Source: Cyanobium sp. FACHB-13342 (GTDB taxonomy: Bacteria > Cyanobacteriota > Cyanobacteriia > PCC-6307 > Cyanobiaceae). Taken from it: 64,000 nucleotides of DNA. The notes beneath the pieces are model-generated. The model searched no databases and was not told where the DNA came from. It saw only the letters and a program-made list of their open reading frames with translations. Below, in pieces: positions 5,304 through 45,860 of this stretch. The translations under genes and the position numbers were made by a program. Where the stretch lies: positions 1-64,000 of the forward strand of contig NZ_JACJRT010000003.1 in assembly GCF_014697415.1 (NCBI RefSeq), read 5' to 3'. The first letter of the stretch is position 1, and the number at the start of each line of letters is the position of its first letter.

Positions 5304-5332
5304 TGAATTCTGTACAGCCTGTACAAAACCCA
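5304..5332. repeat. Copy 1 of a dispersed TGTACA palindromic element
   Basis: The core at 5311-5325 is TGTACA-GCC-TGTACA, a perfect 6-bp inverted repeat around a 3-base spacer. The flanks (GAATTC on the left, AAACCC on the right) pair only weakly, unlike the other three copies at about 25.95, 32.02 and 45.84 kb. It sits in the divergent region between the GntR regulator and the hydrolase gene, 16 bases after a HIP1 octamer (5288-5295). It could be an operator or a degenerate hairpin repeat. Confidence 0.7.
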
Positions 5333-5374
5333 CCACACCGCTTCGACAGCCCCCGCTGGCCCGCCGTCGCCCCC

Positions 5375-6121
5375 ATGACCCAGTCCCCCGTTCCCGTTCA
5401 AGCCGGTTGGCACCAGCTCCCCAGCCCGTCCGCGTCGCCCCTGCGGGCCTGGTGGGCCGTTCCCGCCGATCGGGCGCCCCGGGCGGCGGTGCTGGTGCTG
5501 CCGGAGGTGTTCGGGGTGAATGGCTGGGTGCGCAGCGTGGCCGAGCGGCTGGCGGGCGAGGGCTATGCCGCCCTGGCGATGCCGATCTTTTCCCGCACCG
5601 CCCCCGACCTGGATGTCGGCTACGCCGCCGCCGGCCTGGCGGAGGGCCGGCGCCACCGTGACCAGCTCACGGCGGATCAGTTTCTGGCCGATGCCCGCAC
5701 GGCCATCGCCTGGATCCAGGCCCAGCCGGGTCTGGAGCAGCGGCCCATCGGCTGCGTGGGCTTCTGCTTCGGCGGCCACCTGGCCCTGCTGGCGGCCACC
5801 CTGCCCCCGGTGGCGGCCACCTGCGATTTCTATGGCGCCCGGGTGTCCACCGATCGCCCCGGCGGCGGGCCGCCCACCCTGGAGGTGCTGCCCCAGATCG
5901 GCGGCCGCCTGCTCTGCTTCTGCGGCGACCAGGATCCGCTGATGCCAGCCGAGGAGCTGGCGGCGATCCGTGAGGCCCTGGCGAAGGCCGGCCAGCCACC
6001 GCTGGTTGTGGCTCCAGGGGCCGGTCACGGTTTCATGTGCGAAGCCCGCGCCGACTTTCAGCCTGCAGGGGCCGCCACGGGCTGGAGTCAGATGTTGGCC
6101 CTGTTCGCCGAAACGCTGTAG
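5375..6121 (+). CDS. Dienelactone hydrolase family protein
   Basis: An alpha/beta hydrolase of the carboxymethylenebutenolidase (dienelactone hydrolase) family; the natural substrate in cyanobacteria is unknown. The cysteine nucleophile elbow GFCFGG places Cys131. The Asp of GDQDP (Asp187) and the His of GAGHGF (His218) complete the Cys-Asp-His triad. Total length is 248 residues. The open frame extends to 5276, but ATG 5375 gives a normal N-terminus and avoids the palindromic element. It is divergent from the GntR regulator and convergent with infC (11-base gap). Confidence 0.88.
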   Translation: MTQSPVPVQAGWHQLPSPSASPLRAWWAVPADRAPRAAVLVLPEVFGVNGWVRSVAERLAGEGYAALAMPIFSRTAPDLDVGYAAAGLAEGRRHRDQLTADQFLADARTAIAWIQAQPGLEQRPIGCVGFCFGGHLALLAATLPPVAATCDFYGARVSTDRPGGGPPTLEVLPQIGGRLLCFCGDQDPLMPAEELAAIREALAKAGQPPLVVAPGAGHGFMCEARADFQPAGAATGWSQMLALFAETL

Positions 6122-6132
6122 TTCGCGCCGCT

Positions 6133-44268: not shown

Positions 44269-45706
44269 GGGCGACGCTGTCGCTGCGGCCATAGCGGTCT
44301 TCGAACCGCACGATGTCGTCCTCGCCCAGGTAGGGGCCGCTCTGCACCTCGATCAGTTCCACCGGGATCTTGCCGGGGTTGGAGAGGCGGTGGCGGCAGC
44401 CCAGGGGGATGTAGGTGCTCTGGTTTTCACCCACAAGTTCTTGCCGCCCGTCCTTGTCCACCACCGCCGTGCCCTGCACCACGATCCAGTGCTCGGCCCG
44501 GTGGTGGTGCATCTGCAGCGACAGGCTGGCGCCGGGGTTGACCACAATCCGCTTCACCTGCCAGCGCTCCCCCTCGGTGACGCCGTCGTAGGAGCCCCAG
44601 GGGCGGTAGATCTTGCGGTGGGCCTTGCTCTCGGGCGCGCCCTCCTGTTCGAGCAGCCCGACGATGCGCTTCACGTCCTGGGCCCGGTCGCGGTGGGCCA
44701 CCAGCACCACGTCGTCCGTTTCCACCACCACCAGATCCTCCACGCCCAGGCCCACCACCAGGCGGTGTTCGCTGCGCAGATAGCAGTTGCGGGCGTCCTC
44801 ATGGATCACCCGGCCCCGCAGCACGTTCCCCTGGGGGTCCTGATCGGCCGTTTCCCACAGGGCGCTCCAGCTGCCCACATCGCTCCAGCCAGCCTCCAGG
44901 GCCAGCACCGCCCCCCGATCCGTTTTCTCCATCACCGCCACGTCGAGGGCCACGTTGGGGCAGCCGGCAAAGGCTTCCCGCTCCAGCCGCAGGAAATCCA
45001 GATCGGCGCTGTCCTGCTCCAGGGCAGCGCGGCAGGCGCTCACCACCTCCGGGGCCAGCCGCTCCAGCTCGGCCAGGATGGCGCTGGCCTTGAACAGGAA
45101 CATGCCGCTGTTCCAGGTGAAGCGGCCGGTGGCCAGGAAGGCCTCGGCGGTGGCCCGATCGGGCTTTTCCACAAAGCGGGCGATCGGCACCGGCGCGCTG
45201 GCGGCTGCCAACGATTGGGCGGCCTCGATGTAGCCGTAGCCCGTCTCCGGAGCGGTCGGCACGATCCCGAAGGTCACCAGCTGGCCCGCCTCGGCCGCCG
45301 CTGATCCAGCGCTAACGGTGGCGCGGAAGGCCGCCGCATCCCGGATGACGTGGTCGGCCGCCAGCACCAGCAGCAGCGGATCGTCGCCCTGGGCCGTGGC
45401 CTGCAGGGCCGCCACTGCCACCGCTGGCGCGGTGTTGCGTCCGATCGGCTCCAGCAGGATGGCGGCCGGCTCGACGCCGATCTGGCGCATCTGCTCGGCC
45501 ACGATGAAGCGGTGGTCCTCGTTGCAGATCAGCAGGGGTGGGGCCAGGCCCGGTAAGCCCTCCAGGCGCTGCTGGGTCTGTTGCAGCAGGGTGTCCTCTC
45601 CGGTCCCGGCCAGGGCCCAATACTGCTTGGGGTAACTGGCGCGCGAGAGGGGCCACAGCCGGGTGCCGGTGCCGCCGCACAGGATCACCGGTACAAGACT
45701 TGTCAT
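44255..45706 (-). CDS. manC: Mannose-1-phosphate guanylyltransferase / mannose-6-phosphate isomerase
   Basis: Bifunctional enzyme that makes GDP-mannose for surface polysaccharides. The N-terminal nucleotidyltransferase domain shows PVILCGGTGTRLWPLSRASY, PKQYW and FVEKPD. The C-terminal cupin isomerase domain shows QMHHHRAEHWIVVQGTA and RHRLSNPGKIPVELIEVQ. ATG 45706 gives 483 residues, normal for ManC/AlgA. The frame is open to 45841, but that segment runs into a repeat hairpin and is not protein-like. Gmd at the left edge would use its product. Confidence 0.96.
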   Translation of the reverse strand: MTSLVPVILCGGTGTRLWPLSRASYPKQYWALAGTGEDTLLQQTQQRLEGLPGLAPPLLICNEDHRFIVAEQMRQIGVEPAAILLEPIGRNTAPAVAVAALQATAQGDDPLLLVLAADHVIRDAAAFRATVSAGSAAAEAGQLVTFGIVPTAPETGYGYIEAAQSLAAASAPVPIARFVEKPDRATAEAFLATGRFTWNSGMFLFKASAILAELERLAPEVVSACRAALEQDSADLDFLRLEREAFAGCPNVALDVAVMEKTDRGAVLALEAGWSDVGSWSALWETADQDPQGNVLRGRVIHEDARNCYLRSEHRLVVGLGVEDLVVVETDDVVLVAHRDRAQDVKRIVGLLEQEGAPESKAHRKIYRPWGSYDGVTEGERWQVKRIVVNPGASLSLQMHHHRAEHWIVVQGTAVVDKDGRQELVGENQSTYIPLGCRHRLSNPGKIPVELIEVQSGPYLGEDDIVRFEDRYGRSDSVAPTRP

Positions 45707-45824
45707 CGCGCGGGGTGAAAGTGAGGCCTCACGCCATTCCAGCAGTTGGGTGCCCGATTTGCCTGCGCACAGGCTGCTGCTTGGTTTGGACCCAACGCTG
45801 GTGGCTGAGGCGACGAGGCAACAC

Positions 45825-45860
45825 TCTTGAATTTTGTACAACCTGTACGGAATTCAAAAG
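45825..45860. repeat. Copy 4 of the dispersed TGTACA hairpin element
   Basis: The core TGTACA-ACC-TGTACG (about 45835-45849) is bordered by TTGAATT (45827-45833) and its complement AATTCAA (45851-45857). The two T-G wobbles between core and arms keep the helix continuous in RNA, giving a stem of about 14 bp with a 3-base loop. It lies between the manC start and the rimM stop, both on the minus strand, about 95 bases beyond rimM. This is the best-preserved hairpin of the four. Confidence 0.8.

Follow-up and report, generated by a model that had tools for sequence, protein, structure and literature searches.

Type II antitoxins are regarded as repressors of their own operon. In the accessible text on YefM-YoeB and Axe-Txe, TGTACA forms the core of the operators, whose paired boxes lie 12 bp apart before a Phd/YefM-type antitoxin gene (PMC4803016, PMC7730913); two arginines of YefM are named in the first of these excerpts as needed for DNA binding (PMC4803016). 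Here we describe a family of palindromes of the form TGTACA-N3-TGTACA, four intergenic copies of which lie in a 64-kb stretch (the window) of the genome of Cyanobium sp. FACHB-13342 (G000; 2.37 Mb in 18 contigs). The same site precedes a gene outside the window that joins a Phd/YefM-like antitoxin domain to a PIN-like nuclease domain (hereafter Phd-PIN), and its scattered copies are found mainly in gene-bearing genomes, so that they look like extra binding sites. We regard it as probable that the Phd-PIN fusion binds these sites as double-stranded DNA, and that they have spread to gene ends in the manner of repetitive extragenic palindromes (REPs) and tend to be retained while the gene is retained.

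What the locus shares with YefM-YoeB and Axe-Txe is the set of paired TGTACA-cored boxes before a Phd/YefM-type antitoxin gene. It differs from those systems, as described in the excerpts, in that the partner is a fused PIN domain instead of YoeB and that about twenty more copies lie off the gene, mostly at gene ends. With VapBC it shares a predicted DNA-binding antitoxin, a PIN toxin and likely self-repression, but here the two form one fused gene, which adjoins a holA-like gene in 8 of the 8 genus genomes with the whole gene. RAYT serves REPs as their copying enzyme. The accessible parts of the REP/REPIN and RAYT literature describe short multi-copy extragenic palindromes (20-40 bp) at gene ends that are tied to one gene (PMC8049555, PMC3116915, PMC3733652), and our sites resemble them in these respects; the palindrome here is symmetric, however, and its partner is an antitoxin-nuclease fusion. 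Titles and abstract openings of the open-licence literature yielded no published account of a link between the palindrome and Phd-PIN.

The Phd-PIN gene and the site upstream of it

In G000 an array of four TGTACA boxes (C15:31360-31392) directly precedes the Phd-PIN open reading frame (ORF), which lies between a cobH-like and a holA-like gene (both names by reading of the sequence). Twenty-six of the 29 loci examined, these being the loci with most of the gene among the best loci fetched, carry the core (≤2 mismatches) upstream of the Phd domain at a distance of ≤150 bp, where the rest of the same stretches gives an expectation of 0.008 per 150 bp; the misses are G014, G190 and G244.

The Phd/YefM domain (PF02604) was matched at E ≤0.1 in 22 of 22 aligned proteins, the first member falling under the Pfam cut-off, and the PIN domain (PF01850) in 11 of the 22. 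For the G000 protein itself the Pfam matches were PhdYeFM (E 5e-4) and PIN (E 1e-3), both under their cut-offs. The NCBIfam model phd_fam scored just under its cut-off (17.3 and 20.6 bits vs 20.8), and PADLOC gave nothing better than E 0.035. In an AlphaFold model of the protein (mean predicted local distance difference test score 73.8), residues 12-54 match the VapB46 antitoxin (Z 6.5, 1.3 A over 43 residues, 37% identity), whose domain is also the best PDB sequence match of the N-terminus (HMMER E 0.0027), and residues 128-258 match VapC PIN domains with Z up to 13.2. The protein is thereby placed with the VapBC/Phd-type systems in both its halves. R22 and R42 are invariant and, placed by eye, are the counterparts of the two DNA-binding arginines of YefM. 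Phd-PIN likely binds TGTACA-RSY-TGTACA (R, purine; S, G or C; Y, pyrimidine). Its binding just upstream of its own gene, at four boxes 9 bp apart in G000, would probably amount to self-repression.

G006, G005 and G013 have an in-frame TGTACA-N3-TGTACA palindrome within their Phd-PIN gene (L330:1764, L331:1764 and L332:1764), where it encodes the linker FVQPVQ; the G000 protein retains this peptide, although the DNA there does not match the site even with two mismatches allowed. Elsewhere in G000 (L043:8410-9166, contig C16), a separate Phd-PIN gene pair is immediately followed by a second four-box array, which lies in the gap before a convergent gene that looks by eye like lepA.

Co-occurrence of gene and sites

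In order to relate gene and sites, 400 family genomes were sampled, in which carriers were defined by a protein hit at E ≤1e-6 (n=52) and sites by a 21-mer at ≤2 mismatches (n=58 genomes). The palindrome was found in 45 of the 52 carriers and in 13 of the 348 genomes without the gene (Fisher p 4e-40). Two or more sites were present in 41 of 52 carriers vs 6 of 348 non-carriers, and three or more, a cut used because the gene's own one or two sites then cannot suffice, in 36 of 52 vs 3 of 348. The association persisted on stratification by genus, over the eight genera in which the gene occurs (Cochran-Mantel-Haenszel p 2e-12), and within single genera carriers and non-carriers stood at 13/16 vs 1/26 (g6), 6/6 vs 1/7 (g31), 12/16 vs 3/9 (g10) and 10/10 vs 3/6 (g1). 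Reassigning the partial hits in G004, G015 and G020 to the non-carriers gave 43/49 vs 15/351.

Loss of the gene could be followed in G001, which groups with G005, G006 and G013 in a tree of a 3.7-kb region (identity 94.8-95.7%). These three relatives have the gene and 10, 14 and 13 sites, respectively; G001 has 1 site and, ahead of the holA-like gene, a 24-residue relic of Phd-PIN. At 11 spots that hold a site in G006 or G013, none in G001 passes the 21-mer (2 mismatches) and two pass the 17-mer, while in G012, which also has no gene, 0 of 8 spots pass the 21-mer and 1 of 8 the 17-mer, the latter being L404:1761-1777 (TGCACA-GGC-TGTGCA). Both flanks were located for 9 of the 11 and 7 of the 8 spots; L239 was left out for G001, as no orthologous spot was found. 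Some of the lost spots are deleted and some degenerate. G001 has thus lost both the gene and nearly all sites; gene-bearing G005 retains 6 of 12 spots chosen from the groups of matching places described below (21-mer list). At L397 in G001, the spot of a sister's site now reads GTCCAGGAAGTTGTACA-GA-TGTACAACTTCCTGGAC, a palindrome that is long and perfect and whose spacer has two bases.

Several observations weigh against Phd-PIN as the protein behind the sites. Seven of the 52 carriers have no site at the 21-mer threshold, and six of the 13 site-bearing non-carriers have two or more (G125 2, G252 4, G287 8, G294 2, G316 5, G339 2). G004, with a 55-residue relic, and G015, with the PIN part only, were counted as carriers and hold 12 and 7 sites; moving both to the non-carriers changes g1 to 8/8 vs 5/8. 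The 400 genomes are not independent of each other, and genus was the sole stratum used. Among 56 sites off the gene locus in five genomes, seven lie within 1.5 kb of another Phd-type gene where 0.76 are expected, an excess which suggests that other antitoxins may bind too. The nuclease activity of the PIN domain is putative, its presumed catalytic acids D133, E176, E230 and D245 (our own assignment) being only partly conserved. The boxes are 9 bp apart and not 12 as in the excerpts on YefM-YoeB and Axe-Txe, a spacing that was fixed by our search pattern but that also separates all boxes of the four-box arrays. Finally, most copies lie away from promoters, unlike the YefM operators: the promoter-region position holds for the Phd-PIN gene itself (26/29) and not for most dispersed copies.

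The palindrome family

The initial annotation, made on the window only, had described four near-identical hairpins and called for a search of the whole genome. The pattern search of G000 gave 21 loci at ≤1 mismatch (pattern or its complement; own count), so that the family exceeds the four sites of the window; the longer 21-mer at ≤2 mismatches matched 17 places vs 0 for a reversed control. Two of the G000 loci are arrays of four TGTACA boxes spaced 9 bp.

From loci of same-genus genomes we collected 131 distinct matches to CTGTACANNNTGTACAG at ≤2 mismatches. Dropping L021, which is of another class, and 16 overlapping array frames left 114 sites, a few of them likely chance matches, and removal of similar ones left 90. 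The consensus is CTCCnGRATT-CTGTACA-RSY-TGTACAG-AATYCnGGAG; beyond the 17-base core the symmetry continues over ten more bases on either side and then ends. The central spacer reads purine, G/C, pyrimidine in 103 of the 114 sites, although for the G000 copies two of its positions were partly fixed by the first search pattern. A hairpin loop does not need such symmetry, which therefore counts for a double-stranded DNA site. The bare 17-mer is not specific: in a scan of named-species genomes with CTGTACANNNTGTACAG, 80 of the 119 matching stretches were listed; of these 80, Cyanobium, Synechococcus or Aphanothece account for 7, a filamentous cyanobacterium for 1 and other bacteria for 72.

Placement of the sites and conservation of their places

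Placement was called with a simple in-house gene caller. Of the 114 sites, coding sequence holds 9, convergent gaps hold 35, tandem gaps 41 and divergent gaps 13, and the other 16 are at a stretch edge; the 90-site set gives 29 convergent, 32 tandem, 10 divergent, 9 coding and 10 edge. Convergent gaps make up 17% of the intergenic length in the analysed stretches. Within the 32 tandem gaps, 23 sites are closer to the upstream stop and 8 to the next start, with 1 tie. In genus g6, 11 of the sites at 14 loci (L380-L393, several mutually orthologous) follow a stop by 43-110 bp, another follows two stops, by 99 bp and 147 bp, L380 is divergent and L390 precedes the Phd-PIN gene. These figures favour a preference of the sites for convergent gaps and gene 3' ends.

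This preference bears on whether the sites are operators of a transcription factor that governs the neighbouring genes. Such an ordinary regulon would account for the double-stranded DNA-like symmetry and for sites in divergent promoter gaps, such as the one at 5311 in the window, but only 10 of the 71 intergenic sites whose two neighbours are both known lie in divergent gaps, and the tandem sites keep to the upstream stop (23 of 32). We consider it very improbable. The suggestion of a regulator's operator site in the initial annotation nevertheless came closest in kind, in that the core is that of an operator-like site before the Phd-PIN gene; it does not describe most copies, which lie off promoters.

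The expectation that the family would be dispersed, mostly intergenic and present in related genomes was borne out, with 9 of 114 sites coding, and syntenic comparison showed that many places are kept. Seventy-one of the 114 sites fall into 23 groups at matching places in different genomes. The spot at 25949 of the window is occupied in six other genomes and that at 32011 in five (G006, G007, G008, G011 and G013); the latter site is absent or deleted in G001-G005, G009, G010, G012, G014 and G015.

DNA palindrome or RNA structure

Sites at gene 3' ends could also be RNA hairpins of 3' untranslated regions, acting as terminators, mRNA stabilisers or RNase III targets, and the initial annotation had read the paired arms as the mark of selection for structure. 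Arm pairing does exceed the consensus: per copy, 4.99 of 9 positions pair vs 4.18 ± 0.13 with partners shuffled between copies (90 sites), and the arms are fully paired at 8 of 90 sites vs 0.55 with shuffled partners. A run of eight T, as in an intrinsic terminator, follows one copy in another genome (L396, near 1501), and the G012 palindrome at L404:1761-1777 has both boxes altered to match.

Most of the excess, however, lies between copies and not within orthologous groups. In the 23 groups (71 sites), 428 of 710 arm positions pair vs 420.6 ± 3.8 with within-group shuffling (p 0.035), and pairwise comparisons found 347 one-sided changes and 68 other double changes vs 11 compensated ones. The proposed covariation of the arms thus stands between copies and is weak at orthologous sites. 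A selected RNA hairpin should favour G-U over A-C mismatches on the transcribed strand, yet the sense strands of the 32 tandem sites have 29 G-U vs 30 A-C. Agreement of mismatch type within one site is barely above chance (p 0.10 for 114 sites, 0.04 for 90), a T-run sought in the tandem-site profile was not found, and the symmetric R-S-Y spacer also speaks against RNA. Identity within orthologous groups is 95% in the boxes (inflated, because the boxes formed part of the search pattern), 75% in the arms and 52-61% in the flanks. The evidence favours DNA palindromes whose core sequence counts; selection for RNA structure is not supported, no support was found for an RNase III target in particular, and we judge RNA hairpins improbable.

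Repeats and chromosome organisation

A related possibility is that the palindromes are simply selfish or half-domesticated REP-like repeats that copy into neutral spots at gene ends, Phd-PIN or a lost transposase copying or tolerating them. Their placement resembles that of REPs, and the arms vary among copies yet pair, as if each had arisen as a palindrome. Five loci, L025, L037 and L038 in G004 and L027 and L036 in G014, share 50-133 bp around the palindrome (78-95% identity), which points to duplication; the in-frame palindrome within the Phd-PIN gene of three genomes and the closeness of sites to the gene locus in two complete genomes are also in keeping with copying. Set against this, no Y1 transposase was found in the site-rich genomes G000, G005, G008 and G011, and 23 groups of sites lie at matching places in different genomes. 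Nor is there a GTAG or clear CGTC tag beside the palindrome: at 90 sites, GTAG occurs 4 times within 20 bp vs 6 at 20-40 bp, and CGTC 26 vs 17 times. The absence of transposase and tags sets the family apart from REP/RAYT systems, and we know of no precedent for a PIN-type enzyme that copies repeats. We consider this explanation unlikely. The mobile non-autonomous repeat offered initially fits the placement and a few recent copies, but not the 71 of 114 sites that are held in place across genomes.

As candidate partners, RAYT genes were rejected: PF01797 has no match in G000, and where it does match, in 5 of 16 genus genomes, the matches do not track site counts. A reading of the sites as bounds of one-gene cassettes, suggested by G014, was also dropped as not general, since elsewhere the sites are separated by anything from 0.1 kb to hundreds of kb. 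In that genome (L036:9100-10600) three palindromes about 0.7 kb apart surround an antitoxin-like ORF and a Uma2-like ORF (both by eye), the former with no Pfam match at E 0.01.

The matS palindrome has an R-N-Y centre. In the accessible part of the matS/MatP work, about 20 sites serve one protein in part of the chromosome (PMC3330122), and our count of about 20 copies is similar; the motif and the protein are others, and our sites have a 3'-end bias. Chromosome-organising sites of the matS/MatP or parS/ParB kind would be confined to one part of the chromosome, and in two genomes the sites do lie closer to the gene locus than expected by chance. In G006 the 14 sites besides the gene's own all lie ≤645 kb from the gene (half-chromosome 1328 kb; p 3e-4), and in G004 11 of 12 lie ≤333 kb from the gene relic (p 6e-7), both p values referring to a pattern that was spotted post hoc in these two genomes. 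The gene of G004 is not intact, a 3'-end bias would be unexpected for such sites, and the GC skew over 20 sampled stretches (≤0.063 in size) is too weak to place origin or terminus. A role in chromosome organisation is accordingly quite improbable, and binding sites of Phd-PIN remain our preferred reading.

The four sites of the window

The pattern TGTACA-N3-TGTACA at ≤2 mismatches has 5 matches in the window vs 0.29 expected, and none of 100 shuffles reached 5, so the sites noted initially exceed what chance TGTACA palindromes would give. The fifth match (32305, 2 mismatches) lies within smpB. The four near-identical cores and the paired arms of copies 2-4 were confirmed, with the second core starting at 25949 and not 25950, as was their varied placement.

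Copy 1 (5308-5328; core 5311-5325, TGTACA-GCC-TGTACA, 0 mismatches) has no notable paired arms and lies in a divergent gap between a GntR-family gene (4187-5176, minus strand) and a dienelactone hydrolase gene. The start of the latter is uncertain: ORF 5276-6121 overlaps the site, and an in-frame ATG is present at 5375. Copy 2 (25940-25974; core 25949-25963, TGTACA-ACC-TGTACG, 1 mismatch; arms CTCAG/CTGAG) lies in a gap flanked by two minus-strand genes, an upstream one at 25996-26466, whose stop it follows by 32 bp, and a DUF218 gene at 25086-25901. Copy 3 (32002-32033; core 32011-32025, TGTACA-GGC-TGCACA, 1 mismatch; arms CCAGAA/TTCTGG) is found in the convergent gap between a kinase-domain gene (29965-31953, plus strand) and smpB (32036-32533, minus strand). 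Copy 4 (45828-45857; core 45835-45849, TGTACA-ACC-TGTACG, 1 mismatch; arms TTGAATT/AATTCAA) occupies the tandem gap between rimM (45955-46506) and a manC-like gene (44255-45688), both on the minus strand. No strand is assigned to the palindromes themselves. T-G steps said to pair only in RNA are present in copy 2 (one) and copy 4 (two), but copy 3 carries an A-C mismatch on the same strand, so that the statement is not true of copies 2-4 throughout.

A cmscan of the window identified at gathering scores two tRNAs, RNase P and thiamine pyrophosphate (TPP) elements, none of them at the palindrome sites. The TPP riboswitch lies at 36602-36719 (plus strand) and the RNase P RNA at 47498-47930 (minus strand), near a tRNA gene at 47954-48027.

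Implications

If Phd-PIN binds these sites, the site upstream of its gene would have come to occupy about twenty intergenic positions, chiefly convergent gaps and the 3' ends of genes, and the copies would tend to persist for as long as the gene persists. The preference for gene ends may mean a useful roadblock or nuclease tether there, or simply the usual refuge of REP-like repeats. In the former case, a dimer bound at a gene end might act as a roadblock or as a tether for the PIN domain, which would curb read-through or trim new transcripts; such a role of the bound sites at gene ends is possible but rather doubtful. Somewhat less tentatively, an antitoxin-nuclease fusion may act as the steward of dispersed REP-like palindromes that are gained, kept and lost with one toxin-antitoxin-derived gene and not with an HUH transposase, marking gene ends and perhaps delivering a PIN nuclease to the DNA or to transcripts as they are made.

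The chromosome thus carries about twenty copies of an operator-like site, most of them at gene ends, and the presence of this site tracks one fused gene across a family of abundant picocyanobacteria. Were binding confirmed, REP-like palindromes could be linked to a gene other than RAYT, and a chromosomal relative of toxin-antitoxin systems would play a part across the whole genome, a point of interest for the long-standing question of what such genes are for.

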